A stretch of 64,000 bases of DNA from Flavivirga sp. 57AJ16 (lineage in GTDB: Bacteria; Bacteroidota; Bacteroidia; Flavobacteriales; Flavobacteriaceae). Every line of letters starts with the position of its first letter. Position 1 is the first letter of the stretch. The notes under the pieces are model-generated. The model had not been told where the DNA came from and made no database searches. It saw only the letters and a list, made by a program, of their open reading frames with translations. A program made the position numbers and the translations under genes. The DNA lies in NCBI RefSeq assembly GCF_028736925.1, contig NZ_JAQZAT010000018.1, positions 1-64,000 on the forward strand. Reading direction: 5' to 3'. This document shows positions 18,237 to 37,887 of the stretch, in pieces.

Positions 18237-18245
18237 ATAATTTAC

Positions 18246-18758: not shown

Positions 18759-18934
18759 AAAATAATTTTTTATAGTAGTCTTTTTTAATTTTTGGAAAAG
18801 GTAATTTCGAGGTCTATATAATTCTTCAGACAATCTTTAATATTTCATTAACCATAGCCTTTTAATCAATCAAAATTTGCTTAATATCTAATTATAAGTA
18901 TATCAATTTGAGAAATTGATAATAATGGCTGTTC

Positions 18935-19004
18935 TACGTAAATATCTTAATTAAATGCTATTAATAATACGTATAAATACTTAGTTTTGTATTTAAAATA
19001 CGTA
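18935..19004 (+). promoter_or_regulatory. nirB promoter with three TACGTA sites
   Basis: TACGTA occurs at 18935-18940, 18968-18973 and 18999-19004, spaced 33 and 31 bp, close to three helical turns each. A Bacteroidota-type -7 box TAGTTTTG (TAnnTTTG) lies at 18982-18989. The 15 bases AAATACTTAGTTTTG (18975-18989) recur exactly before the nitrate transporter gene (26605-26619). The site nearest the gene is just 3 bp before the ATG at 19008, so a bound protein there would block translation or early transcription. Confidence 0.6.
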
Positions 19005-19007
19005 GTT

Positions 19008-21521
19008 ATGAAAAAAATAATTGTTGTTGGAAATGGCATGGTGGGATACAAATTCTGTGAAAAGTTTGTAGCTCAAGAAAATAGCAAGAATTTTAAAATC
19101 ACTGTATTTGGTGAAGAACCAAGACCTGCATACGACAGGGTACATTTAAGTGAGTTTTTTGAAAACCAGAATGCGAAAGCCTTAGAAATGGCTCCAGCAG
19201 CATGGTATGCCGATAATAATATTGATTTAATTACTGGCGAACGTGTTGCTGAGATCCATAGAACATCTAAAAAAATAATGACCGCTAAAGACCGCCAGTT
19301 TTCTTATGATTACTTGATTTTGGCAACTGGTTCTTCTCCTTTTGTGCCGCCTATAAAAGGCGTTGAAAAAGATGGCGTTTTTGTATACAGAACTATCGAA
19401 GATTTGGAAAGCATGCTCGCCTACGCTGCTAAGCTTAAAGCTAAAAAACCAGATGCCAGAGCAGCGGTTCTTGGAGGAGGATTACTTGGTTTGGAAGCTG
19501 GTAAAGCTGTTATGGATATGGGCTTAGAGCCTCATATTGTTGAGTTTGCTCCTAAGTTAATGCCTAGACAACTAGATTCCAGAAGTAGTCAGGTTTTAAA
19601 ATTGAAATTAGAATCCATTGGTTTAAATATTCATTTAAGTAAGGCTACCAATCAAATTTTAGGGAACGGCGCCATTACAGGATTGGAGTTTGGTGAAGAT
19701 GATATGCTGGATGTAGATATGTTGATCATTTCTGCAGGAATACGTCCGAGAGATGAATTGGGAAGAGCAAGTGGTTTGGAAGTTGGCGTTCGTGGAGGTA
19801 TTGTTGTAGACAATAAAATGAAAACTTCAGACGAACATATTTATGCCATTGGAGAGATTGCCTTATATAACCAAATGATATATGGTTTGGTTGCCCCAGG
19901 TTATGAAATGGCTGAGGTTGCTGTAAATCAGATTATTGGAAATGAAGAGGTGGTTATGGCTGCAGACATAGATATGTCTACCAAACTAAAATTAATTGGT
20001 GTGGACGTAGCTAGCTTTGGAGAACCTTTTATGCCAGCCTCTAAAGGACATTCAATCATATTTGAAAATAAAACACAGCATTTGTATAAAAGAATTAATG
20101 TGAGTCTTGATGGTAAATCATTACTAGGTGGGATTTTAGTAGGGGATGCTGCAGATTATAATATGTTGCATCAAGTCTATTTAAACGGAATGGTCATTCC
20201 TGAAGATCCATCGCAATTAATCTTGCCTGCAAGTGAAGGAGGTTCGTCATTTGGAAGTGTTTTGGATTTACCGGATACTGCTCAAGTGTGTTCTTGTGAG
20301 AGTGTTTCTAAAGGCGATATTTGTTGTTCGATTACAAATGGTGAATCTCATAATTTAGGTGATGTTATTGCTAAAACCAAGGCAGCTACAGGCTGTGGAG
20401 GTTGTAAGCCTATGGTGGTCGATTTAGTAAATGAAACTCTTAAATCTTTGGGAAAAGAAGTTAAGGAAACTATTTGCGAACACTTTGATTTTAGCAGGCA
20501 GGAATTGTATGATTTGATTAAAATAAATAAAGTGGCAGATTATGAAGAAACACTAAACCTATTTGGAGAAGGGCATGGGTGTGAGGTTTGTAAGCCTTTA
20601 ATAGCGTCTATTTTTGCAACCATTACCATGGAAACTGCAAACAGGCAGCCAACAATACAAGATACTAATGACAGGTTTTTAGCCAATATTCAACGAAACG
20701 GAACCTATTCGGTCGTACCAAGAGTTGCTGGTGGGGAAATTACACCAGACCAACTAATCACTATTGGGGCGGTGGCCAAGAAATACGATTTATATACAAA
20801 AATAACTGGCGGACAACGTATTGATTTATTCGGTGCGCAAATTCATGAATTGCCATTAATCTGGAAAGAGTTGATCGACGCGGGTTTTGAAAGCGGGCAT
20901 GCTTATGGGAAATCCCTAAGAACTGTAAAAAGCTGTGTAGGATCTACCTGGTGTCGTTACGGTATGCATGAGAGCGTGACCTTTGCCATTGATATAGAAA
21001 ATAGATACAGGGGTTTACGTTCACCACATAAATTAAAAGGTGGGGTTTCAGGTTGTATTCGTGAGTGTGCAGAGGCTAGAGGAAAGGATTTTGGGTTAAT
21101 TGCCGTTGATGGTGGATGGAATTTATATGTATGCGGAAACGGTGGTGCTACACCAAAACATGCTGTTTTATTAGCGGAACAATTAGATGACGAAACCGTT
21201 GTGAAATATTTAGATAGATTCTTGATGTATTATATACGAACTGCTGGACCTTTAGTTAGAACAGCCCCTTGGTTAGATAAACTTGAAGGCGGTATAGATT
21301 ATTTGAAGCAGGTGGTCATTGAAGATTCTTTAGGAATAGCTGAAGAGTTAGAGAACGAAATGCAGGGATTAGTAAATAAATATGAGTGTGAATGGAAACA
21401 AGCCATTGAAGACCCAGAAATGATGAAACGCTTTAGGCACTTTGTGAATTCGGATGATACGGATGATAATTTGGTGTTTGTGCCAATGCGCGAGCAGAAG
21501 ATGCCTAAACAATGGACTTAA
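19008..21521 (+). CDS. nirB: Assimilatory nitrite reductase, large subunit (NADH, siroheme)
   Basis: 837 residues from the ATG at 19008; the frame opens seven codons earlier at a TTG, but MKKIIVVGNGMVGYKF is the natural flavoprotein start. Order: FAD/NAD-binding pyridine-nucleotide reductase (1-400, second GxGxxG at LGGGLLGLEAG), BFD-like [2Fe-2S] domain (Cys428, 430, 463, 466), a second short Cys pair (GCEVC), then sulfite/nitrite reductase halves with the siroheme-[4Fe-4S] ligands Cys643-x5-Cys649 and Cys683-x3-Cys687. It reduces nitrite to ammonium in the cytoplasm with NirD, encoded about 200 bp downstream. All expected ligands are present. Confidence 0.95.
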   Translation: MKKIIVVGNGMVGYKFCEKFVAQENSKNFKITVFGEEPRPAYDRVHLSEFFENQNAKALEMAPAAWYADNNIDLITGERVAEIHRTSKKIMTAKDRQFSYDYLILATGSSPFVPPIKGVEKDGVFVYRTIEDLESMLAYAAKLKAKKPDARAAVLGGGLLGLEAGKAVMDMGLEPHIVEFAPKLMPRQLDSRSSQVLKLKLESIGLNIHLSKATNQILGNGAITGLEFGEDDMLDVDMLIISAGIRPRDELGRASGLEVGVRGGIVVDNKMKTSDEHIYAIGEIALYNQMIYGLVAPGYEMAEVAVNQIIGNEEVVMAADIDMSTKLKLIGVDVASFGEPFMPASKGHSIIFENKTQHLYKRINVSLDGKSLLGGILVGDAADYNMLHQVYLNGMVIPEDPSQLILPASEGGSSFGSVLDLPDTAQVCSCESVSKGDICCSITNGESHNLGDVIAKTKAATGCGGCKPMVVDLVNETLKSLGKEVKETICEHFDFSRQELYDLIKINKVADYEETLNLFGEGHGCEVCKPLIASIFATITMETANRQPTIQDTNDRFLANIQRNGTYSVVPRVAGGEITPDQLITIGAVAKKYDLYTKITGGQRIDLFGAQIHELPLIWKELIDAGFESGHAYGKSLRTVKSCVGSTWCRYGMHESVTFAIDIENRYRGLRSPHKLKGGVSGCIRECAEARGKDFGLIAVDGGWNLYVCGNGGATPKHAVLLAEQLDDETVVKYLDRFLMYYIRTAGPLVRTAPWLDKLEGGIDYLKQVVIEDSLGIAEELENEMQGLVNKYECEWKQAIEDPEMMKRFRHFVNSDDTDDNLVFVPMREQKMPKQWT

Positions 21522-21680
21522 ATATAGAAGAAATTAAGGGATCGGGCTTTCCACTATATGCTTTTTTGCAGAAAAAGCAGAAAAGGAAGCCACTGCAGTC
21601 CCTAACGCGAATAAGTTTGCAAAAGACAAATGAATAACTATAAAAGATAATAATTTACACTTCCCACAAGAGTAAGTGTC

Positions 21681-21714
21681 CTCCTCCTTTGGAGGAGCTA
21701 GGGGGAGGCTTTTA
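21681..21714. repeat. Short GC-rich hairpin between nirB and nirD
   Basis: CTCCTCCTTTGGAGGAG forms a hairpin, followed by AGGGGGAGGCTTTT. Compact CCTCC...GGAGG elements of this sort are scattered in flavobacterial genomes. It could act as a weak terminator or as an RNA-stability element between nirB and nirD, giving unequal subunit expression. The rest of the 204-bp gap has no convincing gene. Confidence 0.5.
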
Positions 21715-21725
21715 ATCATTGAATA

Positions 21726-22103
21726 ATGGAGAATATATTAGAACAGTACAGATCGGTTACGAAAAAAGAGGCGAAAACTTGGTTTAAAGTAGGTGTGACT
21801 GCTGATTTTCCGGAGAATAGTGGTGCGTGTATTAAGTACAAAACCAAACAGATTGCGGTGTATAATTTTACGCGAACGGGGAAGTGGTATGCAACACAAA
21901 ATTTGTGTCCGCATAAAATGGAAATGGTGTTGTCATTAGGAATGATAGGAGATAAGGATGGGATTCCGAAGGTGGCTTGCCCGATGCATAAGAAAAATTT
22001 TTCGTTGGAGGATGGTACAAATCTTGCTGGTGATGATTTGAAAATTGCGACGTATCCTGTTAAGATTGAAAATGGAAATGTGTATATTGGCTTTTCGGAT
22101 TAA
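21726..22103 (+). CDS. nirD: Nitrite reductase small subunit, Rieske-type
   Basis: 125 residues. A Rieske [2Fe-2S] fold with ligands Cys61-x-His63 (NLCPHKM) and Cys85-x2-His88 (VACPMHKK), and the strand WYATQNLCPH before the first pair. NirD is the small partner of NirB. The spacing between the two ligand pairs (22 residues) is within the Rieske range. It is followed 14 bp later by the DUF4202 gene, so nirD, the DUF4202 gene and the sensor kinase look like one transcription unit. Confidence 0.9.
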   Translation: MENILEQYRSVTKKEAKTWFKVGVTADFPENSGACIKYKTKQIAVYNFTRTGKWYATQNLCPHKMEMVLSLGMIGDKDGIPKVACPMHKKNFSLEDGTNLAGDDLKIATYPVKIENGNVYIGFSD

Positions 22104-22117
22104 TATTTTGAAAACTT

Positions 22118-22702
22118 ATGAAGCCTACACGATTTGAAACTGCTATTGCATTAATTGATAAAGCCAATTCTGAAGACGTAAACACGTATAAAGTTGCTGG
22201 TATAGAGTACCCTAAGGAGTTGTTGTACTCCCAACGAATGACGAGAAAATTGTTACAATTTAAACCTAATGCCTCTAAGGCATTACAAATCGCAGCTAGA
22301 GCACAGCACATTTGTAGGTGGAAAATTGCACGTGATGAATACCCCATGGACCGTGTTGGCTACTTAAAATGGCGAGAAACTTTGAAAAAGATGCATGCCG
22401 ACTTAACTTCCGATATTTTAAAGCAGGTGGGGTATGATGATGCGTTTGTAAATAGAATTAGATCGATCATTCTTAAAAAACTAATTAAGAAGAATGAGGA
22501 ATCCCAGGCTTTAGAAGATACCATTTGCTTGGTATTTTTAGATTATTATTTTGAGGAATTTGCTGCAAAACATCCAGATGAAAAGGTGATCGATATTCTT
22601 CAGAAAACATGGGTGAAAATGTCTGATGGGGGACAGCAAGAAGCTTTGAAACTAAACTTCTCTGAGAAATCTTTATCCTTAGTGAAACAGGCTTTGGCTT
22701 AA
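22118..22702 (+). CDS. DUF4202 family protein
   Basis: 194 residues, mostly helical, of the DUF4202 family. Visible features are RFETAIALIDKANSEDVNT, ELLYSQRMTRKLLQF, RAQHICRWKIARDEYPMDRVGYLKWR, and LVFLDYYFEEFAAKHPDEK. The His/Asp/Glu residues in these stretches (AQH-x4-W; LDYYFEEF) look like those of HD-type or other metal-binding helical proteins, but no activity is established that I know of. Placed 14 bp after nirD and 14 bp before the sensor kinase, it probably serves nitrate/nitrite assimilation. A decayed second copy of its C-terminus is at 57581-57727. Confidence 0.8.
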   Translation: MKPTRFETAIALIDKANSEDVNTYKVAGIEYPKELLYSQRMTRKLLQFKPNASKALQIAARAQHICRWKIARDEYPMDRVGYLKWRETLKKMHADLTSDILKQVGYDDAFVNRIRSIILKKLIKKNEESQALEDTICLVFLDYYFEEFAAKHPDEKVIDILQKTWVKMSDGGQQEALKLNFSEKSLSLVKQALA

Positions 22703-22716
22703 AATATTTAAATGAT

Positions 22717-24522
22717 ATGACTAAAAACGGTAACTCATTAGACCAACGCACTTTTGATAAATTACGCCGTTTATACATTATTGCATTGAGTACTATTGCA
22801 GTTTCTGTAATTGTAAGTCAGATTTTAATACGTACGCACCTTAGCGGACAAGAAAGCGATTCTACCGTAATAAATATTGCGGGTAGACAGCGTATGTTGA
22901 GTCAAAAACTAACAAAAGATATTTTGTCGCTTTCATCGTCTTCCTCTTCAGAAAAAAAACAACTTATTAAGGATGATATAAAGCGTACTTTAAATCTTTG
23001 GGAATTATCACATCATGCACTTCAAAAAGGTAATGACAGTTTGGGTTTGCCAAAAAAAAATAGCGCAGATATTAGCGCAAAATTTAATATTATAAATCCT
23101 ATTTTTGATACCATTGTTAGCGCATCAAGGTCCATAATTAAACAGGTTGAAAGCCATACTGATGGCTCATTGGAAAAAGATGTTGATAAAGTAAAAGCCA
23201 ACGAAAATCAGTTTTTGATGTTGATGGACGATATTGTGAATCAATATGATGTAGAAGCCGATGAAAAAGTAGACTGGTTACGCAAACTCGAATTTCTATT
23301 AACGGCTTTAACACTGCTTATTTTATTAGGTGAGTTTTTATTCATTTTTTGGCCAGCAGCAAAGTCGGTTAAGATTACACTTGCCGAATTATTATTTGCA
23401 GAAAAACGTGCCAAAAAAATGGCTTTTGATGCTGATGAATTAAGTAAATCCAAAGAAAGATCTATTAAGGAATTGCGTGCTTTAAGCCGTGCTATGGATG
23501 ACACCTTGTTGTTTGCGCGCATATTGCCCAATGGACGAGTCGTACACATGGGGAATAAGTTTTCGCGTTTATTTAAATATTCTAAATTTAATGAAACGGC
23601 TCTATTTTGGGATGTGCTTACCGTTGATGAAAAAGAAAAGGAATCCATTGAGAACCTTATACAGAAATTTAAAAAAACGGGATGGCAAGGCGAGTTTAAA
23701 GCCACTACTAAAGATAATGAGGCTGTTTGGTTGGAAATGGCTATAATTCCTTACAGTCCTAAAGATGAAAAAACAGAATTGCTCATCATAGCTTCTGATG
23801 TTACGGAACGTAAAATAGCGCAACTTGAAATTGGTAGACTTACCGAAAAGAGCTTTCAGGATAAGATGAGTCAGCAAAAAATTATTTCCAGTAAGATTAT
23901 TGAAAACCAAGAAAAGGAGCAAAATCGAATAGCAAAGGATGTTCATGATGGGATAGGGCAAATGCTTACAGGTTTAAAATATAATTTAGAGAGTATAGAC
24001 CCTAAGGATGTTGAAAAAGCAACCATTAAAATTGAACATCTAAAAGAATTAACCACCAATATTATAAAAGGTGTAAGAACAGCGACTTTTAACTTAACGC
24101 CACCAGAATTGACCGATCATGGTATTGTGCCGGCCATTACAAAACTAACTCAAGAACTTTCAAGGCTTACGGGTAAAGAAATTGTGATGTTCAATAAAAC
24201 ATCATTTAACCAACGTTTAGATTCACTTTCTGAAATTAATATTTATCGCATTACGCAAGAGGCTATAAATAATGCCATTAAATATGCGGAATCTACACAT
24301 ATAATGGTATCTCTATCACATAGTAAAGATATATTGAGTATTGTTATTGATGATAATGGTAAAGGTTTTGACCCCGATAAAGTGAAGCATGTTAAAACTG
24401 GTGATGGTGGCATGGGGATGACGTTTATGCGAGAGCGCATTAAATATATTGATGGTCGTTTATTTTTAAATTCCGAAAAAGGGAAAGGAACACGGGTGAC
24501 GTTGAATATTCCTTTAGGTTAA
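22717..24522 (+). CDS. NarX/NreB-like sensor histidine kinase with PilJ-type sensor and PAS domain
   Basis: 601 residues. Membrane helix 1 (about 15-37), a periplasmic PilJ/NarX-type helical domain starting with DSTVINIAGRQRMLSQKLTKD, the P-box-like stretch, membrane helix 2 (about 190-212), a PAS domain (about 250-365), and a HisKA_3 kinase core: DVHDGIGQMLTGL with phospho-His410, ITQEAINNAIKYA, DDNGKGFDPD and GGMGMTFMRERI. The INIAGRQRMLSQ motif is the one used by NarX-type nitrate/nitrite sensors. The likely partner is the LuxR-type regulator at 24806. A mobile palindromic element is inserted 8 bp after its stop codon. Confidence 0.88.
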   Translation: MTKNGNSLDQRTFDKLRRLYIIALSTIAVSVIVSQILIRTHLSGQESDSTVINIAGRQRMLSQKLTKDILSLSSSSSSEKKQLIKDDIKRTLNLWELSHHALQKGNDSLGLPKKNSADISAKFNIINPIFDTIVSASRSIIKQVESHTDGSLEKDVDKVKANENQFLMLMDDIVNQYDVEADEKVDWLRKLEFLLTALTLLILLGEFLFIFWPAAKSVKITLAELLFAEKRAKKMAFDADELSKSKERSIKELRALSRAMDDTLLFARILPNGRVVHMGNKFSRLFKYSKFNETALFWDVLTVDEKEKESIENLIQKFKKTGWQGEFKATTKDNEAVWLEMAIIPYSPKDEKTELLIIASDVTERKIAQLEIGRLTEKSFQDKMSQQKIISSKIIENQEKEQNRIAKDVHDGIGQMLTGLKYNLESIDPKDVEKATIKIEHLKELTTNIIKGVRTATFNLTPPELTDHGIVPAITKLTQELSRLTGKEIVMFNKTSFNQRLDSLSEINIYRITQEAINNAIKYAESTHIMVSLSHSKDILSIVIDDNGKGFDPDKVKHVKTGDGGMGMTFMRERIKYIDGRLFLNSEKGKGTRVTLNIPLG

Positions 24523-24530
24523 TATAAATT

Positions 24531-24699
24531 CTGAATGTCCGTAATCACACATAATGATTTTTTTGTCATTCAGAGCCTAGCGAACCTGCCGGCAGGCAGG
24601 GAATCTGTTAATAATCTATGAGATCCCTCGAGATCCCTCGTTGCCTCGGGATGACAAAATCAATATGTTTTTAGGTTTATGACATATTACGGTCAATCA
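24531..24699. repeat. Palindromic MITE with 9-bp target duplication
   Basis: The simple form of the TGAATGTCCGTAAT element. Its ends are CTGAATGTCCGTAATC and ATTACGGTCAATCA. ATATAAATT flanks it on both sides (24522-24530 and 24700-24708), a perfect 9-bp duplication and good evidence that it arrived by transposition. The middle repeats GAGATCCCTC twice and holds GCCTAGCGAAC and CTCGGGATGACA arms that can pair. It separates the sensor kinase from its presumed response regulator. Confidence 0.85.
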
Positions 24700-24752
24700 A
24701 TATAAATTAAAATGAAGCTTGAAATTCAAGTCACAGCATGAAAAGATTAGAA

Positions 24753-24783
24753 TACGTAGTATTACTTAATTTTACTACTTTTG
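24753..24783 (+). promoter_or_regulatory. Promoter of the NarL-type regulator with TACGTA site
   Basis: TACGTA at 24753-24758 lies 17 bp upstream of the -7 box TACTTTTG (24776-24783, TAnnTTTG). The ATG follows at 24806. The regulator therefore has its own promoter of the same type as nirB, downstream of the MITE, and may be under autoregulation or FNR-like control. Confidence 0.55.
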
Positions 24784-24805
24784 TATTTATAAGAAGATAA
24801 TAAAT

Positions 24806-25465
24806 ATGATTGACGTAGTTCTTGCAGACGACCATGTTTTAGTTAGAGATGGTATTAAAGCACTTTTAGAAGATCAAGATGGTATTGCTGTTATTGATGA
24901 AGCATCTAACGGAAAAGAAGCTTTAGAAGTAATTGCTCGAAACAAACCCCATGTATTGATTGTAGATATCAGAATGCCAGAAATGAATGGTATTGAAGTA
25001 GTTGGAGAAATTAGTAAAAGGCATAAAGATGTAAGAACATTGGTACTGTCTATGCATGATTCTGAAGAATATGTCGTGCAAGCTATTCAAGCTGGAGCTG
25101 ATGGTTATTTGTTGAAGGGAGCCAGTAAAGAGGAATTTATAAAAGCGTTGAATAAAGTAGCTTCTGGAGGTAAGTATTTTACAGGTGATGTATCTGCTAT
25201 TATTATGAATAACTTTGTGAATGGAAATACCAATGCAGTAGTTGCTCCTAAACTAGAATCAAAAGCATTACCATTTAACCTTACCAAACGCGAGAAGCAG
25301 ATTTTAGGTTTGGTATTAGAGTTAAAGAACAATAAGGATATCGCGGAAGAACTTCAAATTAGTAAGCGCACTGCCGAAGTGCATCGTTTCAATCTCATGA
25401 AAAAACTAGAGGTTAAAAATTTAATGGAGTTGAATAATAAGGCTAAGGAGTTTGGGTTGGTATAA
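24806..25465 (+). CDS. NarL/NreC-type response regulator (REC + LuxR HTH)
   Basis: 219 residues. The receiver has the acidic pocket (LADDHVLV), phospho-Asp54 in LIVDIRMPEMNG, Ser/Thr in VLSMHDSEEY and the Lys in YLLKGASKEEF. The C-terminal LuxR-type HTH (about 153-215) reads LTKREKQILGLVLELKNNKDIAEEL and SKRTAEVHRFNLMKKL. This is the NarL/FixJ class and most likely partners the PilJ/PAS kinase encoded upstream. It probably activates the nitrate and nitrite assimilation genes; the TACGTA sites in their promoters are one candidate target. Confidence 0.9.
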   Translation: MIDVVLADDHVLVRDGIKALLEDQDGIAVIDEASNGKEALEVIARNKPHVLIVDIRMPEMNGIEVVGEISKRHKDVRTLVLSMHDSEEYVVQAIQAGADGYLLKGASKEEFIKALNKVASGGKYFTGDVSAIIMNNFVNGNTNAVVAPKLESKALPFNLTKREKQILGLVLELKNNKDIAEELQISKRTAEVHRFNLMKKLEVKNLMELNNKAKEFGLV

Positions 25466-25596
25466 TATGATGTTTTAAAAAAGCTTAAAGATTTTGTCAT
25501 TAGAACTCATCTTGACTTTTTATTATCAAGTTAAAGGTTAAACCCTTACAATTTCATTGCAGTTACTTTAGTTTCTATAAAATTTTAAGAGTATTT

Positions 25597-25678
25597 TGTC
25601 ATTTCGAACGCAGAGAGAAATCACATCATAAAATTAAAATGATGAGATTCCTCGTCGCTTTGCTCTGTCGGAATGACA
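25597..25678. repeat. Palindromic repeat TGTCATTTCG...CGGAATGACA
   Basis: An 82-bp imperfect palindrome: TGTCATTTCGAACGCAGAG pairs with the complementary GCTCTGTCGGAATGACA arm, with an inner ATCACATCAT...ATGATGAGAT stem. This type of dispersed palindrome is common in flavobacterial intergenic regions. It may act as a bidirectional terminator for the regulator gene, but no poly-T follows. Confidence 0.65.
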
Positions 25679-25751
25679 CTATACTAAAAATAGAATTTCA
25701 TTCTTGTTTAAAACTATGGATTTCCAATCCATAGTGGTTTATTTTTAACCG

Positions 25752-25848
25752 AAATCGAAGATTCACGAACACCTATTTATCAAATAAGATCAGTGAGCTA
25801 AATCGAAGATTCATGAACTCCTATTTATTAAATAAGATCTGTGAGCTA
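25752..25848. repeat. Two tandem copies of a 49-bp repeat (ATCGAAGATTCACGAAC type)
   Basis: Copies at 25752-25800 and 25801-25848, about 90% alike by eye. The unit starts AAATCGAAGATTCACGAAC and ends CAGTGAGCTA. Two more tandem copies are at 26260-26308 and 26309-26356, and one lone diverged copy is at 42800-42849. There are no spacers, so this is not CRISPR. Confidence 0.8.
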
Positions 25849-25879
25849 AAAAGTAAGTAAAAAAACTTTTAGCTCATAT

Positions 25880-26258
25880 ACCGAAAAAGATGTGGGTACA
25901 CCGTAGCTACCGCAGCTACAGTGTACCCACAAATCATGATCATCTGTCGCAGCCACAGATAAAAGAACTTGCTCTATGTCCCTTGCTTTCTGTATAGGTT
26001 TGCCGTACCAGCCTCGCAGACCGCTTTTTATAGAGCGCTCAGGTCTCTCTGCTAGCTGTTGGAAAAATACCATAAGGCTGTTCCCGACCTTTCGGAAGGA
26101 TAGGGCACAAAAGCTTCGAGGAACAGGAGCATTGGCGTTGGACATTGCGGTGGGGCGACGCGAAGTTTTGGGCCCGGTTCTTCTCTGGCGACAGCATGAG
26201 AAGAAATCCCTCTCGAAAGGGCGTCTTTTCTTTTGTTACTTTTCTTTGGACGAGCAAA
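25880..26258. other. GC-richer non-coding block between two repeat pairs
   Basis: This block is visibly richer in G+C than its surroundings. It opens with a 41-bp near-perfect palindrome (25891-25931) made from TGTGGGTACACCGTAGCTAC and its complement, and ends with a TTTTGTTACTTTTCTTTGG tract. Open frames exist on both strands but none resembles a protein. The palindrome arm appears again in the same orientation at 26406-26427, after the second repeat pair. The block is probably part of a mobile or REP-like element, or it could encode a structured RNA; neither is shown. Confidence 0.5.
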
Positions 26259-26259
26259 G

Positions 26260-26432
26260 AAATCGAAGATTCACGAACACCTATTTATCAAATAAGATCA
26301 GTGAGCTAAATCGAAGATTCACGAACACCTATTTATCAAATAAAATCAGTGAGCTAAAAGTAAGTAAAAAGGGAAATAAGCTTTGTTCTTTATATTGAAA
26401 AAAGATGTGGGTACACCGTAGCTACCGGCAGG
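26260..26432. repeat. Second pair of 49-bp repeats plus TGTGGGTACACC arm
   Basis: Two tandem copies (26260-26308, 26309-26356) are followed by AAAGTAAGTAAAAA and, at 26406, by TGTGGGTACACCGTAGCTAC. The same order (repeat pair, GTAAGTAAAAA, GATGTGGGTACACC) is found at 25752-25910, so the roughly 160-bp module is directly duplicated around the GC-rich block. Confidence 0.75.
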
Positions 26433-26574
26433 TTTTAGGAAATAGAAAAAGTAAAGGAGTTCGATACATGATTCATTAATAAGGTTCTTAAAATCACATC
26501 ATCTTTAAGGATACTTTTTACCAAATTCTCAAAACCTACATTCCAAAATTATCAACCTCATAATTCTTTTGTAA

Positions 26575-26636
26575 TACGTATTTTATTTTTAAATAATTAA
26601 GTAAAAATACTTAGTTTTGAATATTAAAAATACGTA
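26575..26636 (+). promoter_or_regulatory. Nitrate transporter promoter with two TACGTA sites
   Basis: TACGTA at 26575-26580 and 26631-26636 flank the -7 box TAGTTTTG (26612-26619). AAATACTTAGTTTTG (26605-26619) is identical to the nirB core promoter (18975-18989). As in nirB, the last TACGTA sits directly before the start codon (ATG at 26639). Confidence 0.6.
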
Positions 26637-26638
26637 TT

Positions 26639-28066
26639 ATGCTCAATATTCAAGCTCAAAAATCGACAACGTTACAATTATTCAATCTTAAAAACGTCTC
26701 TATACGTACATTCTGGATTACAGCTATATCATTCTTCATGTGTTTCTTCGCATGGTTCGGTATCGTACCTTTTATGCCAGGTGTGGTTAAGGATTTAGGT
26801 TTAACGCCGGACCAAAAATGGAACTCCATCATTTTAGCAGTTTCGGGTACCGTGTTTGCTCGCTTGCTTATTGGGAAATTATGCGATAAATATGGTCCTA
26901 GACTATGCTATACATGGTTATTAACTTTAGGCGCCATTCCTGTTATTTTATGCGGATTGGTGCAAACACCAGCACAATTTTTAGTTTGTAGATTATTTAT
27001 TGGTTTTATAGGGGCATCGTTTGTAATTACACAAGTACATACCTCTTTAATGTTTGCGCCCAATATTGTGGGAACAGCAAATGCAACATCTGCTGGTTGG
27101 GGAAATCTTGGTGGTGGTGCTAACCGTTTAGGGATGCCATTAATAGCTGCGGCAGTAGTTGGTTTTGGAGTCCCAGAAGGAGAGGCTTGGAGATATGCTA
27201 TGGTCATCGCTGGAATAATTTGTTTTTTAATGGGCATGGTTTATTTTTTCTTTACAAAGGATACCCCACAAGGAAATTTCAAAGATTTGAGAGCTGCTGG
27301 TGAAATGGTATCCACAAAAAAGGACCAGGTTGGTTTTTTAACCGTACTTAAAGATTACAGAACTTGGATTTTATTTGTCGTGTATGCCGCTTGTTTTGGT
27401 ATAGAACTTACGGTTTATGGTACTATGGACGATTATCTTCAAAATACCTTTCAGTTGGAGCGTGTAACAGCTGGAAACATGGTATTATCGTTCGCATTAA
27501 TGAACATTTTTGCAAGAACATTAGGTGGTTTCTTTGGTGATAAATTCGGAAAATTAAAAGGTTTAAGGGGGCGCGTATTATTCCTATCATTTATTCTCGC
27601 TACTCAAGGCATCATGCTTGTAACGTTTTCAATGACAACTAGTATCATCGTTGGTGTGCTGTTTTTGATATGTTTTAGTTTATCGGTTCAAATGGCGGAA
27701 GGTGCCACTTTTTCTGTAGTGCCATTTATAAATAAAAAAGCTATTGGTTCGGTCTCGGGTATTGTTGGTGCAGGTGGAAATGTTGGCGCGTTTTTGGCGG
27801 CCATGTTACTAAAATCGAAATCGGCAGTAGCAGAAAAGGCGGCAATAATTGCCAATGAAGGGATGGGGGCAGAAGTTATAAGTTCGGCACAATCGGCAGC
27901 AGCATCAAGTGCGGTTTCTAGTGGTTATTTTTTAATCGGGTGTGTTGTCGTTGTAACATCTATAGTGGCCCTAACCATTAAATTTTCAGCAGAAGATGAA
28001 AAAGTTGCCAATGCTGTTATAAAAAATTCAGCAGATGCGCTTATACCTGTTAAAGTAAAAAGTTAA
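26639..28066 (+). CDS. NNP-type nitrate/nitrite transporter (MFS)
   Basis: 475 residues, 12 membrane helices. The nitrate/nitrite porter signature is clear: GWGNLGGGANRLGMPL (about 146-163) in helix 5, and the second one, VGAGGNVGAFLAAMLL (about 377-392), in helix 11. RLLIGKLCDKYGPR is the MFS loop 2-3 motif. The protein brings nitrate (and possibly exports nitrite) across the inner membrane. It has its own promoter sharing a 15-bp core with nirB. The window also encodes an NrtABCD-type ABC importer, so nitrate uptake is served twice. Confidence 0.93.
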   Translation: MLNIQAQKSTTLQLFNLKNVSIRTFWITAISFFMCFFAWFGIVPFMPGVVKDLGLTPDQKWNSIILAVSGTVFARLLIGKLCDKYGPRLCYTWLLTLGAIPVILCGLVQTPAQFLVCRLFIGFIGASFVITQVHTSLMFAPNIVGTANATSAGWGNLGGGANRLGMPLIAAAVVGFGVPEGEAWRYAMVIAGIICFLMGMVYFFFTKDTPQGNFKDLRAAGEMVSTKKDQVGFLTVLKDYRTWILFVVYAACFGIELTVYGTMDDYLQNTFQLERVTAGNMVLSFALMNIFARTLGGFFGDKFGKLKGLRGRVLFLSFILATQGIMLVTFSMTTSIIVGVLFLICFSLSVQMAEGATFSVVPFINKKAIGSVSGIVGAGGNVGAFLAAMLLKSKSAVAEKAAIIANEGMGAEVISSAQSAAASSAVSSGYFLIGCVVVVTSIVALTIKFSAEDEKVANAVIKNSADALIPVKVKS

Positions 28067-28079
28067 TGGTAAAAGGACG

Positions 28080-28133
28080 CCTTGAAATTTTCAAGGTTTC
28101 AGCTGAATTTGTCATTCCCGAGAAATCGGGAAT
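28080..28133. repeat. Two short palindromes after the nitrate transporter gene
   Basis: CCTTGAAATTTTCAAGG (28080-28096) and ATTCCCGAGAAATCGGGAAT (28114-28133) lie 14 bp after the stop codon. Either may end the transcript, though neither is followed by a good T-run. The second resembles the ends of dispersed GTCATTCCCGA palindromes. The remaining bases up to 28293 show no further feature. Confidence 0.5.
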
Positions 28134-28293
28134 CTAAATAATAAATTTGTGAAACGAATTTAGTTATTTGCACGATGGATTTTTGTCAATTTTTGAATAA
28201 AAACTAAGTTAATTACAGTATTCAAAATAATGATGGCTCACTATTGTTTCATAAAATAATAATCTTTTAATTAGTATAAAACCCTGCCTATAA

Positions 28294-31200
28294 ATGATTA
28301 AGAACGAAATAAAAACAACGTGCTCCTATTGTGGTGTTGGCTGTGGGATTATTGTTAAAAAAGATACTAACGATAAAGTTTTTGTTGAGGGTGATAAAGA
28401 GCATCCTGTAAATAAGGGCATGCTGTGTTCTAAAGGGATGAATTTACATTACGTAGCTAATGATACTTCCGATAGAATTTTATACCCTGAAATGCGTTGG
28501 AGCCGTTCACATCCCAGGGAACGGGTAAGTTGGGATGATGCTTTAGATAGAGCTGCGAGTGTTTTTAAGGCCATTATAAAAAAACATGGTCCAGATAGTG
28601 TTGGTTTTTATGTCTCTGGACAAAGTTTAACCGAAGAATATTACATTGCCAATAAACTTACAAAAGGCTTTTTAGGAACAAATAATATCGACACCAATTC
28701 AAGACTCTGTATGAGTTCTGCTGTAGTAGGCTATAAGAAAACGTTTGGAGAAGATAGTGTTCCCATTTCTTATGAAGATATTGAATTGGCAGATACATTT
28801 TTAGTTACAGGTGCTAATCCGGCATGGTGCCATCCTATTTTATTCCGCCGTTTGGAAAAGCGAAAAGAAGACAACCCGGATGTGAAAATCATCGTTGTCG
28901 ATCCAAGAAAAACAGACACCGCTAATTTTGCAGATATTCATTTACAAATATTACCGGGAACCGATGTGATTTTATACAACGCCATTGGAAGATGCTTGTA
29001 TAAACGTGGTTTGATTGATGATGCATTTATAAAAAACCATACAGAAGGTTTTCAAGAGTACAAAGACTTAATTTTTAAAACGTCTTTGGAGCAAGCTTCA
29101 AAATTATGTGGAGTTCCCAAAAAAGATATCCAAAAAACAGCCGATATTATTGGGCTTTCCAAAGGTTTTATAAGTATGTGGGCCATGGGGCTTAACCAAA
29201 GTGTGGTGGGGACGGATAAAAACATTTCATTGTTAAATCTTTCACTAATAACGGGTCAGGTAGGGAAACCTGGTGCAGGCCCTTTTTCATTAACAGGCCA
29301 ACCTAATGCTATGGGCGGACGTGAAGTAGGAGGCATGGCAAACCTATTGGCGGTTCATAAAGATTTGATGAATGAGGAACATCGTCGTGAAGTGGCGCAG
29401 TTTTGGGGAGTAGACAAAATTAATCCCAAACCAGGATGGACCGCTACCGAAATGTTTGATGCTTTGGAAAGTGGTAAAATGAAAGCCGTTTGGATAGCAT
29501 GTACTAATCCTTTGGTGAGTTTGCCAAATTTGAATCGTATTGAAAAAGCCTTGAAAAACGCGAAGTTTGTTGTGGTTCAGGAGATTTCGCATAAATCTGA
29601 TACGGTAGATTTTGCAGATTTGGTATTACCAGCAGCTGGATGGTTAGAGAAGGAAGGCACCATGACGAACTCAGAACGTCGTATTTCATATTTGCCTAAA
29701 GAAATTGAAGCCCCGGGAGAAGCAAGGCCTGATGTTGAAATTTTCTGTGATTTTGCACAACGTATGGGCTTTAGGGGGTTTAATTATAATAGCGCAAGCG
29801 ACATTTATGACGAGTATGCGTTAATGACCAAAGGGACAAACATGGATGTGTCTTTTCTAAATTACGATAGATTAAAAACCGAAGGCACGTTTCAATGGCC
29901 AGTACCAGAACATAGACACCAAGGGACTTCAAGGTTATTTGAGGATAAAAAGTTTTATACACCAACGCAAAAGGCCCAGTTTAATATTCCAGCTTCAATA
30001 GTCAATACATCCGTTCAGCCAAATGCTGAATTTCCTTTAATCCTAACAACAGGACGTGTGCGCGATCAATGGCATACCATGACCAAAACAGGAAAGGTAT
30101 CACGTTTAAAAACACACTATCCGACCCCCGTTTTAGAAATCCACCCCGTAGATGCTTTTTTAAACAAAATTAAAAACGGCGATATTACAGAAATAAAAGG
30201 CGAAAATGGTCTTGTTAGAATGCGTGCAAAAGTAACCGATACCATAAAAAAGGGGGTTGTATTTATGCCCATGCATTGGGGAAAACAATTGCAAAGTAAT
30301 TTAAATAGAGCTAACAATTTAACCAATACGCATTTAGACCCAATATCTAAAGAACCAGATTTTAAATTCACACGGGTTTCCGTTTCAAGATATAAAAAAT
30401 CTGTTGAAAAAATTATAATAGCTGGGGCTGGAGCGGCAGCATTTCGATTTGTTCAAAATTATAGGGAGTATAATGAAACAGATGAAATTCATGTGTTCTC
30501 AAAAGAGTCTAACCTGTTTTACAATAGAGTGTTGTTGCCTGAATATATCACCGAGGAATTAACTTGGGAGCAGCTTCTTAAAATAAAGAAGTTAGAGCTG
30601 AATAAACTCAATATTAAGTTGCATCCAGAAATTCATATATCTAAAATAGATAAAGACCAAAAAGTGGTAACAGATAGTCATGGGGAAACCCACAGCTTCG
30701 ATAAATTAATACTGGCAACCGGTAGTCGCGCTTTTGTGCCAAAGGATGTGCAAATAGACTTGCCAGGGCGTTTTACCATGCGAAATAAAAATGATGCCGA
30801 TAGATTTAAGACCTATTTAGAAGCCACTGGTTTACCTCCAGAAGAACAACATGTGGTGATCGTTGGCGGGGGATTGCTCGGATTGGAATTGGCAGCGGCC
30901 ATGAAGCATAAAAATGTTGAAATCACGATCGTGCAACGTGGTTCTCGTTTAATGGAGCGCCAGTTGGATAAAGTATCCAGTAAATTATTGGCACTGGATG
31001 TTCAGGAACGTGGGATTCAAATTTATTTTGATAATGAAGTAAGCACCGTGTTTGATGATGAAGATACAGGCGAATTAAACATCACGCTTAAGAGTGGAAA
31101 ATTTATAACAGCCAATGCTATTGTATATACCATTGGCACCATTCCCAATGTGGAGATAGCAAGAGAAAATGGTATAAGTTGTGCCAGGGGTGTTAAGGTA

Positions 31201-31815
31201 GATCAACATTTACAATCGTCGCATCCAGATATTTTCGCTATAGGGGAAATAGCCGAATTTAATAATCAGCTATTTGGAATTACTTCAGCTGCTGAAGAAC
31301 AAGCTGCCATTTTAGCCAATTATATAGCTGGAGATATTAGTTGTTCTTATAGTGGTTCGGTCTTAATGAACATTTTAAAATTTAATGATTTGAACCTTTG
31401 CAGTATAGGGGAAATTAATGTTCCAGAACATGATGACAGCTATGAGGAAATCATATTTACCGACATCAAAAAGCGCTATTATAAAAAATGCATTGTAAAG
31501 GATGATTTATTAATTGGTGCCATTTTAATGGGGGATAAGAATGAGTTTGCCGAATTTAAAACGATGATTGAGAGTAAGATTGAAATGGCAGATAAGCGAG
31601 ACACATTGCTTAGGGGATCTTCAAACGATGTACCTGTTTTAGGAAAATTGGTTTGCTCATGTAGTCAAGTAGGGGCCGGTAATATTGAAGAAACCATTGC
31701 ACAAGGATGTACGGATTTTACAGCATTATGTAATAAAACAGGCGCAGGCTTAGGTTGTGGGAGTTGTAAAACTGAAGTTCGGGAAATATTAAACAATTCA
31801 AAAGTATTGGCATGA
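28294..31815 (+). CDS. Fused assimilatory nitrate reductase: Mo catalytic part + FAD/NAD(H) reductase + BFD [2Fe-2S]
   Basis: 1173 residues. Residues 1-690 are a molybdopterin oxidoreductase of the NasA/NapA type: [4Fe-4S] ligands Cys10, 13, 17 and 45 (CSYCGVGC; GMLCSKG), Mo ligand Cys139 (SRLCMSSAV), and the dinucleotide-binding C-domain (LTTGRVRDQWHTMTKTGK). Residues 700-1090 are an FAD/NAD-dependent reductase like the front of NirB (IIAGAGAAAFRF; VGGGLLGLELA; IFAIGEIA). Residues 1110-1173 are a BFD-like domain (VCSCS; GCGSC). Many bacteria keep the catalytic (NasA/NasC) and reductase (NasB) parts separate; here one chain could take electrons from NADH to nitrate. The stop overlaps the next ATG (ATGA). 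Confidence 0.93.
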   Translation: MIKNEIKTTCSYCGVGCGIIVKKDTNDKVFVEGDKEHPVNKGMLCSKGMNLHYVANDTSDRILYPEMRWSRSHPRERVSWDDALDRAASVFKAIIKKHGPDSVGFYVSGQSLTEEYYIANKLTKGFLGTNNIDTNSRLCMSSAVVGYKKTFGEDSVPISYEDIELADTFLVTGANPAWCHPILFRRLEKRKEDNPDVKIIVVDPRKTDTANFADIHLQILPGTDVILYNAIGRCLYKRGLIDDAFIKNHTEGFQEYKDLIFKTSLEQASKLCGVPKKDIQKTADIIGLSKGFISMWAMGLNQSVVGTDKNISLLNLSLITGQVGKPGAGPFSLTGQPNAMGGREVGGMANLLAVHKDLMNEEHRREVAQFWGVDKINPKPGWTATEMFDALESGKMKAVWIACTNPLVSLPNLNRIEKALKNAKFVVVQEISHKSDTVDFADLVLPAAGWLEKEGTMTNSERRISYLPKEIEAPGEARPDVEIFCDFAQRMGFRGFNYNSASDIYDEYALMTKGTNMDVSFLNYDRLKTEGTFQWPVPEHRHQGTSRLFEDKKFYTPTQKAQFNIPASIVNTSVQPNAEFPLILTTGRVRDQWHTMTKTGKVSRLKTHYPTPVLEIHPVDAFLNKIKNGDITEIKGENGLVRMRAKVTDTIKKGVVFMPMHWGKQLQSNLNRANNLTNTHLDPISKEPDFKFTRVSVSRYKKSVEKIIIAGAGAAAFRFVQNYREYNETDEIHVFSKESNLFYNRVLLPEYITEELTWEQLLKIKKLELNKLNIKLHPEIHISKIDKDQKVVTDSHGETHSFDKLILATGSRAFVPKDVQIDLPGRFTMRNKNDADRFKTYLEATGLPPEEQHVVIVGGGLLGLELAAAMKHKNVEITIVQRGSRLMERQLDKVSSKLLALDVQERGIQIYFDNEVSTVFDDEDTGELNITLKSGKFITANAIVYTIGTIPNVEIARENGISCARGVKVDQHLQSSHPDIFAIGEIAEFNNQLFGITSAAEEQAAILANYIAGDISCSYSGSVLMNILKFNDLNLCSIGEINVPEHDDSYEEIIFTDIKKRYYKKCIVKDDLLIGAILMGDKNEFAEFKTMIESKIEMADKRDTLLRGSSNDVPVLGKLVCSCSQVGAGNIEETIAQGCTDFTALCNKTGAGLGCGSCKTEVREILNNSKVLA

Positions 31816-33254
31816 TGGACGAACGATATAGATTGATGATAAATGGTGGTGTATTATCGCCTGGGGAATTAAAATATATTTGTGAAGTGGCCGAGGGTTT
31901 AGGTCTGGATGCCATTTCTTTTGGTTCTCGACAGGATATTATTTTTCCTGAAAGAATAGATGAAAGCAAGTTTAGCCAATTCGATAAAGTTCAGTTTGTA
32001 AAACCCAAACGGGATGGTATTGAAAATATAGCATCGTCCTACGTGTCTGCCGAAATTTTACCAAGTACCTCGTGGCTTACTTCCGATAGGTATTTGTATG
32101 TTTTAGAACAATTCAAGCACCATCCGCAACTTCGTATTAATGTTACCGATCCAAAACAGCGTTTGGTGCCCTTATTTACCGGTAACGTCAATTTCATAGC
32201 TTCCGAGCATGAAGATTATTGGTATTTATATCTCAGGCTTCCAGGTTGGAAAAAAACTCAAATGTATCCCGCACTTATCTATAGTTGGGATATGGACAAG
32301 ATTGAATTGACCATAGAAAATATTTTACAAGAAGAACCAGAAACCATAGAAACCGTTTTTGATTTGGTAAGTGATGCTATTGATACCAATAACAGAACCG
32401 TCGATGAGCCTTTGGAAGTGCCTTTTTATCCTTTTCCATATTATGAAGGGATGAACAGGATAGGAACAGATCGCTATTGGTTGGGCTTATATTGGAGAAA
32501 TAACAGATACGACTTAAAGTTTCTGAAAGTTATGTGCGAGTTATGTTCAGAAAATAAAATTGGTAAAATCTCTATCACGCCATGGAAATCTTTTATTGTT
32601 AAGGGGATTCCATTACATTCAAAATTAAAATGGGAAAAACTTCTGGGTAAATTCGGTATCAATGTACGACACTCCATGTTAGAGATGAACTGGCATTTGC
32701 CAGTAAACGATAAAGAAGCATTAAGCTTAAAAAAGTATTTGGTTACCAATTTTGACCAAAATGATATTAGTACCTACGGATTAACTTTTGGAATCACGAA
32801 TTATGATAGTGATACATACAACTTTACTTCAATTGTAATAGAAAAAAATAGACAGCCAGGACCCATAGGCGGTTTCAAAATAAGAGACACTTACAATCTG
32901 TTGTATGCCAAAAACTTCGACCCAAATACAAGAGAATACATCATGCATGTTCAAGATGTAGACAAGGTAGAACTACCTGGTTTGTTAATGGAACTAAGTC
33001 AGTTATATTTTGAACAATTAGGAACAGAACGCGAAGAGGAAAATGGTGCCGTTTCTAATAAGGAAACGGTAGAGGAAGAGGTGTACCAGTGTTCAGAATG
33101 TATGACCGTTTATAATGAAATTTACGGAGATATGACTCAAGGCATACCTCCAAACACATCTTTTGAAAGTTTGCCAACAGACTATGAATGTTCACTTTGC
33201 GAAGCACCAAAAAGTAGTTTAATAAAAAAAACAATAGTAAAAACAATCATTTAA
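31812..33254 (+). CDS. Rubredoxin-domain protein on a nitrite/sulfite-reductase-like scaffold
   Basis: 480 residues. Two ferredoxin-like half domains of the nitrite/sulfite reductase kind are visible (about 5-65, start RYRLMINGGVLSPGELKYI; and about 210-270, GTDRYWLGLYW...ISITPWKSFIVKGI). The four Cys that would bind the siroheme-[4Fe-4S] centre are not present, so it should not be a nitrite reductase. Residues 425-465 are a classic rubredoxin: Cys427-x2-Cys430, 29 residues, Cys460-x2-Cys463. It overlaps the nitrate reductase gene by four bases, so it is probably an electron carrier or assembly partner of that enzyme. This role is inference. Confidence 0.82.
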   Translation: MMDERYRLMINGGVLSPGELKYICEVAEGLGLDAISFGSRQDIIFPERIDESKFSQFDKVQFVKPKRDGIENIASSYVSAEILPSTSWLTSDRYLYVLEQFKHHPQLRINVTDPKQRLVPLFTGNVNFIASEHEDYWYLYLRLPGWKKTQMYPALIYSWDMDKIELTIENILQEEPETIETVFDLVSDAIDTNNRTVDEPLEVPFYPFPYYEGMNRIGTDRYWLGLYWRNNRYDLKFLKVMCELCSENKIGKISITPWKSFIVKGIPLHSKLKWEKLLGKFGINVRHSMLEMNWHLPVNDKEALSLKKYLVTNFDQNDISTYGLTFGITNYDSDTYNFTSIVIEKNRQPGPIGGFKIRDTYNLLYAKNFDPNTREYIMHVQDVDKVELPGLLMELSQLYFEQLGTEREEENGAVSNKETVEEEVYQCSECMTVYNEIYGDMTQGIPPNTSFESLPTDYECSLCEAPKSSLIKKTIVKTII

Positions 33255-33300
33255 ATAATGACGTTTAGTACCGATAAAAGATAAAATTGATAGTATAAAT

Positions 33301-34050
33301 TTGGTTTCGAAACCCTTACATATAAAGTTTAAAAATCAATCAACTTTTAATAGTAGCTGTGGGTTATGTTTAAATAACGCTTGCTTAATTAAAAGAAATT
33401 TAAAAGCTTTGGAGCGTTCTGAAATAGTAAACTTAAAAAGTACACTGCCCTGCAAAAAAGGGCAACAGTTTATTATTGAAGGAGCACCGGTAAACGGCTT
33501 GTTTTTTATTTTAAAAGGTACCGTTAAAGTCTTTAGAACAGGGATTAATGGACGTGAACAAATTGTTCGTTTTGCTAAAGAAGGTGAAATTATTGGCCAT
33601 CGTGGTTTTGGTACAGAAGAGTATTATTCTATAGGCGCCATAGCTTTGCAGGATGCTGTTCTGTGTTATTTTTCAAAAGAAAATTTGCAGGACACTTTAT
33701 TGGAAAACCCTAAGTTTGCTTATGATATGATGTTATTTTACGCTAATGAACTTAATAGAAGCGAAAATAAAGTGAAGTCTATTTCACAAATGACAGTGCG
33801 TGAGCGCGTTATTGATACCTTATTATATATACATAGAAAGTTTGGGGATTTACGGGGTTTTTTAAACCTGCCATTAAGCCGAAAAGAATATGCCGATTAT
33901 GCAGGTACTACTGAAGAGCAAGTGATTCGAATTTTTTCAAGCTTAAAGAAAGAAGGCCTCATTAAAGCTAGGGGGAAAAAGATTGCTATTACTGATGTTC
34001 AATTACTTAAAAAAGAAATCAGTGAACACCATTATTTCTTAGATACATAA
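33301..34050 (+). CDS. Crp/Fnr-family regulator with FNR-like cysteine set
   Basis: 249 residues, starting at the TTG at 33301: the frame is closed upstream by a TGA and contains no early ATG. A cyclic-nucleotide-type barrel (about 45-150: KKGQQFIIEGAPVNGLFFILKGTVKVF) is followed by a dimer helix and a winged HTH (LSRKEYADYAGTTEEQVIRIFSSLKKEGLI). With this start the Cys residues fall at 20, 23 and 28 (SSCGLCLNNAC), 51 and 122 (DAVLCYF), almost the positions of the iron-sulfur ligands of Escherichia coli FNR (20, 23, 29, 122). An oxygen- or NO-responsive cluster is therefore plausible. It is 46 bp after the rubredoxin gene and likely controls the island. Confidence 0.85.
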   Translation: MVSKPLHIKFKNQSTFNSSCGLCLNNACLIKRNLKALERSEIVNLKSTLPCKKGQQFIIEGAPVNGLFFILKGTVKVFRTGINGREQIVRFAKEGEIIGHRGFGTEEYYSIGAIALQDAVLCYFSKENLQDTLLENPKFAYDMMLFYANELNRSENKVKSISQMTVRERVIDTLLYIHRKFGDLRGFLNLPLSRKEYADYAGTTEEQVIRIFSSLKKEGLIKARGKKIAITDVQLLKKEISEHHYFLDT

Positions 34051-34060
34051 AATCTTCTAG

Positions 34061-34076
34061 AGGGCTTTTTTGCCCT
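34061..34076 (+). terminator. Possible terminator hairpin after the Crp/Fnr gene
   Basis: AGGGC-TTTTTT-GCCCT lies 10 bp after the stop codon. The stem is short and no T-run follows, so it is weak evidence for the end of the nitrate reductase transcript. Confidence 0.35.
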
Positions 34077-34109
34077 AATATTCAAAATTATTTACGGCAT
34101 TTTATAATT

Positions 34110-34266
34110 TACGTAGCTTCACTTGTTATCTACGTATTTTGTTAATTTATTAAAAATCAATTAATTATGTTTTTAACCTGTTTTTTAATAGGTTTTTTTG
34201 TGTTCTAAAAAGAGGTTTTAATATGTGTATTCTCATAAGGTGAAATAAAAACTACGTATATATTTG
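34110..34266 (+). promoter_or_regulatory. nrtA promoter with three TACGTA sites
   Basis: TACGTA at 34110-34115, 34131-34136 and 34253-34258. The first two are 21 bp apart (two helical turns). The third directly abuts a -7 box TATATTTG (34259-34266). The ATG of nrtA follows at 34313. Confidence 0.55.
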
Positions 34267-34312
34267 TCTAAAAATAAGTATTAATACTTAAAAATTATTT
34301 AAAACGACAAAA

Positions 34313-35707: not shown

Positions 35708-35734
35708 TTAGTAAAGTAAATTAATAAGACAAAG

Positions 35735-36844: not shown

Positions 36845-36845
36845 A

Positions 36846-36924
36846 GGGAGTTGGAAGTTAGAAGTTGGAAGTTGGGAGTAGGGAGTTTGAAGTGCGAAGT
36901 AGGGAGTAGGGAGTTGGAAGTTTA
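36846..36924. repeat. Purine-rich GGAAGTT/GGGAGTA tandem repeat
   Basis: About ten units of the 6-8 bp motif GGAAGTT / GGGAGTA / GGAGTT run through this stretch right after the nrtB stop codon. The plus strand is nearly pyrimidine-poor (only T breaks the purine run). Such runs are common slippage-prone spacers in flavobacterial genomes. It lies inside the nrtB-nrtC gap, and its length may vary between strains. Confidence 0.7.
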
Positions 36925-37029
36925 GCTTGTTTATGGATAAGTATTTACTGAAGACTGAGGACCAACGCCCAAAATAAAAGGATGAGTAAGTATAAATAAC
37001 TAAACAGGTAAACGAAAGAACATTTTAAA

Positions 37030-37881: not shown

Positions 37882-37887
37882 AATGAG

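Follow-up and report, generated by a model that had tools for sequence, protein, structure and literature searches.

Two-component control of nitrate genes has been described for NarX-NarL and NarQ-NarP of enterobacteria, which pair a nitrate-type sensor kinase with a NarL-family regulator, and for NreBC of staphylococci. NarL touches DNA through residues K188, V189, and K192 and binds sites in a 7-2-7 convergent layout, and in the NreC site the two arms of an inverted repeat are separated by 4 bp. The heptamer read by NarL and NarP is given as TACYYMT in the excerpted text of PMC4886647. In the alphaproteobacterial FixLJ system, FixL is a heme-containing oxygen sensor and the targets include fixK and nif genes. 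For FixJ, excerpts of PMC4999443 give the sites GTAMGTAG, a consensus from systematic evolution of ligands by exponential enrichment (SELEX), and TAAGTAATTTCCCTTA, and those of PMC13327599 place GTACGTAG in a FixJ-bound fixK promoter. Here we describe an operator array in a nitrate island of Flavivirga sp. 57AJ16 (Bacteroidota; Flavobacteriaceae), within a window of 64,000 nucleotides (positions 1 to 64,000 of contig NZ_JAQZAT010000018.1, assembly GCF_028736925.1, forward strand). The array is built on a 16-bp dyad, TAMGTA-N4-TACKTA, at the promoters of nirB, narL, narK, and nrtA (Table 1) and, leaving aside the sign of control, we consider it likely from sequence comparisons that its reader is the two-component system encoded in the island itself.

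The dyad was found by footprinting the upstream regions of 80 related loci, which were retrieved via the transporter protein, with the other genes placed by tblastn; rows were left out when the gene start lay <200 bp from the locus end or the match began past residue 60. An exact dyad precedes nirB in 49/52 loci, narK in 63/80 (79/80 with at most one mismatch), narL in 50/67, and nrtA in all 20, and none is found before six operon-internal genes (0/51, 0/49, 0/51, 0/20, 0/22, and 0/59). As to spacing, the loci (1.58 Mb) contain 228 matches with N4, and no other spacing from 0 to 24 exceeded 41 matches in the same orientation or 43 in the opposite orientation; N4 places the half-sites 10 bp apart, one helical turn. 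The 4.9-Mb genome holds only eight exact dyads, against two for a reversed-pattern control, and half of the eight are the four island promoters, with one dyad each. Of the other four, one follows a dnaJ-like gene, one precedes by about 20 bp an open reading frame (ORF) within a gene pair (L087), and two are located behind a response-regulator gene and a further gene, respectively; we take these four as probable background.

A preliminary description of this DNA had noted not the dyad but the hexamer TACGTA, as an element shared by the promoters of the nitrate island. Its observations were accurate: all nine TACGTA coordinates before the four genes are exact, the spacings of 33 and 31 bp before nirB and the four TAnnTTTG boxes are present, and the 15-mer AAATACTTAGTTTTG is common to nirB (18975) and narK (26605). 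TACGTA is by itself common, with 581 copies in 4,916,354 bp (1 per 8.5 kb), and the clusters could in principle be chance products of AT-rich DNA. However, nine copies (3 + 1 + 2 + 3) fall within 250 bp upstream of nirB, narL, narK, and nrtA, 1 kb in total, where 0.118 would be expected from the genome rate; the Poisson probability is about 1e-14, or 5e-12 at a doubled rate, values that are indicative only because the sites were picked by eye. The window as a whole holds 17 copies against a mean of 9.7 in 100 shuffles, two of which reach 17. An equal density of TACGTA in other intergenic DNA would have spoken for chance, and one copy was counted in the remaining intergenic sequence of the window, which amounts to 11,446 bp as defined from a list of 37 ORFs. 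Nor are the sites lost from the promoters of relatives, as TACGTA recurs before nirB in 51/52 loci, narK in 78/80, narL in 49/67, and nrtA in 14/20, and before the six operon-internal genes in only 0 to 2 loci each (20 to 59 loci per gene). For the 23 remaining palindromic hexamers of equal composition the maximum was 7/52 for nirB (from the six commonest of the 23), 13/80 for narK, 34/67 for narL, and 5/20 for nrtA. The narL maximum belongs to TGATCA and probably reflects coding DNA, because in many loci the end of narX falls inside the narL region. On these counts, this conservation, and these palindrome controls we rejected a chance origin of the clusters, to which we assign practically no probability.

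The shared island element is strongly supported by genome counts and footprinting, although not as a lone hexamer: it is a 6-4-6 dyad accompanied by extra half-sites. The dyad is better conserved than the lone TACGTA, which is a half-site variant. Within the window, the dyads of narK and nrtA contain no TACGTA at all, and the TACGTA before narL, previously listed as a single site, is one half of a dyad. Likewise, the 33- and 31-bp spacings do not hold up as a constant feature; what is constant is the 10-bp spacing of the half-sites and the distance to the -7 box.

At nirB and narK this distance hardly varies. The TAnnTTTG box starts 14 bp after the start of the dyad in 46/49 nirB, 58/64 narK, and 10/21 nrtA promoters, and in the other 11 nrtA loci it lies 13 to 17 bp ahead of the dyad. 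Using the numbering of Flavobacterium johnsoniae, in which the -7 box spans -12 to -5 according to the excerpted text of PMC6847099, we place the dyad centers at about -18.5 (nirB, narK), -27.5 (narL), and +12 (nrtA of the window), all relative to inferred starts. A fixed register might also be expected if no regulator were dedicated to the dyad and it were instead part of the sigma-factor promoter or a structural element of the DNA, and the AT-rich motifs at -18 and -28 that excerpts of PMC6847099 report for Flavobacterium promoters are near the dyad centers. We consider this improbable, since such an element would have to be reconciled with only eight exact dyads genome-wide, which leaves most other strong promoters without an exact copy, with the position of the nrtA dyad downstream of the -7 box in 11/21 loci, with dyad counts that track the regulator, and with the survival of the hexamer in a genome of 61% GC (both described below).

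Table 1. Operator elements, promoter boxes, and genes of the nitrate island (window positions).
Feature	Position	Strand	Remark
nirB upstream half-site TACGTA	18935..18940	.	Offset -33 from dyad start; that offset in 11/49 orthologs
nirB dyad TACGTA-TAAA-TACTTA	18968..18983	.	Exact match; about -26 to -11 from inferred start
nirB -7 box TAGTTTTG	18982..18989	+	First two bases are the end of the dyad
nirB downstream half-site TACGTA	18999..19004	.	3 bp ahead of ATG (19008)
nirB	19008..21521	+	Proposed target
DUF4202 protein	22118-22702		Between nirD and kinase gene
NarX/NarQ-like histidine kinase	22717..24522	+	PilJ, PAS_9, HisKA_3, HATPase_c; proposed nitrate sensor
narL dyad TACGTA-GTAT-TACTTA	24753..24768	.	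Exact match; about -35 to -20
narL -7 box TACTTTTG	24776..24783	+	Offset +23 in 24/51 loci, differing elsewhere
NarL/FixJ-family response regulator (narL)	24806..25465	+	Proposed reader
narK upstream half-site TACGTA	26575..26580	.	Offset -23; that offset in 25/64 loci
narK (NNP) dyad TAAGTA-AAAA-TACTTA	26598..26613	.	Exact match
narK -7 box TAGTTTTG	26612..26619	+	Two-base overlap with dyad
narK downstream half-site TACGTA	26631..26636	.	2 bp ahead of ATG
NNP nitrate/nitrite transporter, narK family	26639..28066	+	Proposed target
Assimilatory nitrate reductase (nasC)	28294..31815	+	Molybdopterin, Pyr_redox, and Fer2_BFD domains; downstream of narK
CRP/FNR-family regulator	33301..34050	+	Rejected as reader of the dyad
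Two more TACGTA (34110, 34131)	34110..34136	.	165 and 144 bp ahead of nrtA dyad
Candidate FNR-like site TATGTGTATTCTCATA (TATG-N8-CATA-like)	34222..34237	.	Centered at about -41.5
nrtA half-site TACGTA	34253..34258	.	Immediately ahead of -7 box
nrtA -7 box TATATTTG	34259..34266	+	Sequence match
nrtA dyad TAAGTA-TTAA-TACTTA	34275..34290	.	Downstream of inferred start, about +5 to +20
nrtABC-type nitrate ABC transporter genes	34313..38718	+	Proposed target

Two further features of these upstream regions were observed. A TACGTA lies within 14 bp of the nirB ATG in 37/52 orthologs, in an untranslated leader that would normally be free to vary. In addition, direct repeats (80 nt, 89% alike; 70 nt, 91%; 44 nt, 91%) are present upstream of nirB (18245-18767) and narL (24531-24708); they stop before the TACGTA sites and resemble a dispersed repeat.

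Two regulators encoded in the island were considered as readers, the NarL/FixJ-family response regulator and the FNR-like protein. The 31 genomes behind 31 of the 80 loci all have a match to the response regulator (best match 46-86% identity), while an FNR-like ortholog (at least 60%) is present in 21 and absent from 10. A broader survey of 299 genomes of the family, drawn evenly and scored for co-occurrence by best-hit E-value cut-offs rather than trees, identified the regulator in 67, narK in 47, and the FNR-like protein in 49, with both of the latter sets entirely inside the 67; a regulator ortholog thus accompanies narK in all 47 narK genomes. The mean number of dyads is 7.13 (control 2.87) where the regulator is present and 2.29 (control 2.01) where it is absent (P 3e-20). 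Even the 18 genomes that have the regulator and no FNR-like protein, with a mean of 5.17 (control 3.06), are above the no-regulator set (P 4.8e-5). In a phylum sample of 345 genomes the regulator was found in 19, two of them from other families, and in one of these two (G514) a 20-kb stretch contains four exact dyads, two of which precede narK and nirB by 51 and 24 bp, respectively. Taken together, these distributions indicate that the dyad is most likely read by the island's NarX/NarL-type two-component system and not by the FNR-like protein.

The preliminary description had named both proteins as likely readers, and only the NarL/NreC-like regulator is supported. The case for the FNR-like protein, reading either TACGTA or the dyad, is that its gene adjoins nrtA within the island, that all 49 genomes having it also have the response regulator, that genomes with both regulators hold more dyads (numbers below), and that the usual spacing of CRP/FNR sites matches a 5-4-5 inverted repeat. 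CRP/FNR-family sites are indeed alike in their inverted repeat geometry; the dyad, however, does not follow the FNR-like protein across genomes. The ten genomes without an ortholog keep the narK dyad (nine exact, one with one mismatch) and the nirB dyad (exact in all ten), and the protein has a candidate site of its own at a fixed position before nrtA. We therefore rejected the FNR-like protein as reader of the dyad and regard this role as very improbable.

The separate candidate site, a TATG-N8-CATA-like sequence, has its center 29 bp before the -7 box in 10/11 nrtA promoters with an adjoining FNR-like gene, and was found at that place in 0/10 nrtA loci without one. The consensus was written after the nrtA promoters were seen, and the match scores of the two sets overlap (8-9 versus 7-8 of 10); it is position that separates them. 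A center at about -41.5 is the position of a class-II activator, and the FNR-like protein would separately activate nrtA from there in a class-II-like manner. Two stretches of the protein, CGLCLNNAC close to the N-terminus and LPCKKG farther along, may form an iron-sulfur cluster.

Among known operators, the dyad resembles those of FixJ. To the extent that FixJ sites are given in the excerpts cited above, the two share the half-site TAMGTA and the 16-bp 6-4-6 layout, and the recognition helix of the island regulator is close to FixJ SPRTVEVHRANVMAKM. TAMGTA/TACKTA half-sites are present in all four window promoters, and the flanking G of the excerpted FixJ consensus GTAMGTAG is kept only in part in the dyads. 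The helix pattern S[KRT]RTxExHRF[NK]LM[KR]K[LM] is found in 68/68 regulator orthologs, down to 52% identity, whereas of six paralogous DNA-binding domains in the genome (E up to 0.001) the three that could be resolved have other helices. Unlike FixJ operators, the dyads here are near-perfect palindromes that abut the Bacteroidota -7 box; instead of fixK, the genes preceded by them function in nitrate uptake and reduction; and the partner kinase, with PilJ and PAS_9 domains, is NarX/NarQ-like. In this last respect, and in the location of kinase and regulator beside nitrate/nitrite genes, the island resembles the enterobacterial systems, and it also shares its proposed two-component control of nitrate genes with NreBC, but the kinase here carries a PilJ-type sensor domain. 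The layout of NarL sites is convergent, unlike the divergent N4 layout of the dyad, and the NarL recognition helix differs (RTAEVHRFNLMKK versus STVKVHVKHMLKK in an alignment with the island regulator). With respect to the heptamer consensus as excerpted above, TACTTA fits its first six bases and TACGTA, with G at position 4, does not. A NarL-type heptamer operator was rejected because TACGTA is off the consensus and the NarL recognition-helix residues are not matched.

Several observations weigh against a FixJ-like island regulator as the reader of a conserved dyad. Among PDB structures, the DNA-binding domain matches EsrB best and FixJ second, and the regulator as a whole is nearest NarL, so that the likeness to FixJ rests on helix and site. 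Sensor-part matches of the kinase are weak by E-value (NarQ 0.38, 6gcv 0.018). No exact dyad is present in 17/80 narK and 17/67 narL regions. The relatives compared are statistically non-independent, and the promoters had been seen before the dyad was defined. Genomes with both regulators average 7.86 dyads, compared with 5.17 for the response regulator alone (P 1.6e-5), a difference that additional targets (nrtA, fnr) might explain. At least three dyads occur in 70/232 genomes without the regulator. Finally, no exact N4 dyad is present in the 19.5-kb nitrate locus of G499, the other genome from outside the family (61% GC), although this locus does keep the TACGTA clusters: of its 12 copies, ten are ahead of nirB (six) and nasC (four), which speaks for the element.

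In three of the genomes without the regulator (G161, G226, and G231), most of the dyad matches belong to a different, dispersed inverted repeat: TACGTAGTTCTACGTA or its complement is present in 15/19 pattern matches of G161 and 11/18 of G231, and TACGTATATCTACGTA or its complement in 11/19 of G226. In each genome these copies share one spacer pair.

Based on these comparisons, we propose that the NarX/NarQ-like kinase senses nitrate and signals to the NarL/FixJ-family regulator. The kinase has PilJ (E 4.5e-15) and HisKA_3 (E 1.7e-10) domains, and a P-box-like stretch, INIAGRQRMLSQKL, aligns with NarQ INIAGSLRMQSYRL. The regulator would bind the dyads of nirBD-DUF4202-narXL, narK-nasC, nrtABC, and its own gene, by which all of these would be coupled to nitrate. 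As for the sign of control, we lean slightly toward repression relieved by nitrate, the balance being about even. Without nitrate, the regulator would sit across the core promoter (at -18.5, -27.5, or +12) and block RNA polymerase, and nitrate would relieve the block; the location of the dyads across or just past the core promoter fits repression of this kind. Unphosphorylated FixJ is reported as a repressor in Rhodopseudomonas in the excerpted text of PMC13327599.

The same operator and reader could also work with the opposite sign, the regulator phosphorylated in response to nitrate binding the dyads together with the upstream half-sites (at about -46 or -56) and activating weak promoters. 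Counting against repression, and in favor of activation, is position -10 of the -7 boxes, where both nirB and narK have a conserved G that would suit a weak, activator-dependent promoter: this base is reported in the excerpted text of PMC6847099 as virtually absent from 241 probable F. johnsoniae promoters. The upstream half-sites, at offsets of -33 (nirB) and -23 (narK), are at activator-like distances, and NarL/FixJ proteins are often activators. However, the placement of the main dyads, across the core promoter or past the inferred start, is unusual for activators of this family, and we hold activation to be a serious but tentative possibility. A -33 TTG, found in 1/37, 2/59, 2/39, and 0/21 promoters, is also present in just 2/47 controls and hence is uninformative on activator dependence.

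NirD is encoded in the island alongside NirB, as is a rubredoxin-domain protein, and the DUF4202 gene holds the same position between nirD and the kinase gene in most related loci. Most of the further dyads in these loci sit shortly ahead of nasC, nirB, or nrtA. In loci that do not have nasC immediately after narK, nasC is preceded by a dyad of its own (17/71 loci), usually about 53 bp before its start and, in 13 of the 17, in the same register to the -7 box (two of 19 rows, L057 and L077, were dropped as nirB promoters). The presence of a dyad at nasC when it is separated from narK indicates that the operator followed the genes through rearrangement.

In the open-access literature we found no description of the dyad operator or of a Flavobacteriaceae regulator of nitrate assimilation or other nitrate genes. 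It may be, although we say so with reserve, that the island represents something new: FixJ-type DNA specificity joined to a NarX-type nitrate sensor in Bacteroidota, with an operator in fixed register to the -7 box and a regulon controlled inside the core promoter, autoregulated and confined to the island, whose operator followed nasC and nrtA through rearrangements. Marine flavobacteria are abundant and degrade algal material. For this family the dyad provides a concrete, testable operator and reader, and members of the regulon can be found by pattern in new genomes; the FNR-like protein at nrtA would be a second, separate input. More broadly, predicting NarL/FixJ binding sites from sequence would be made easier by this pairing, in another phylum, of a conserved recognition helix with a FixJ-like site.

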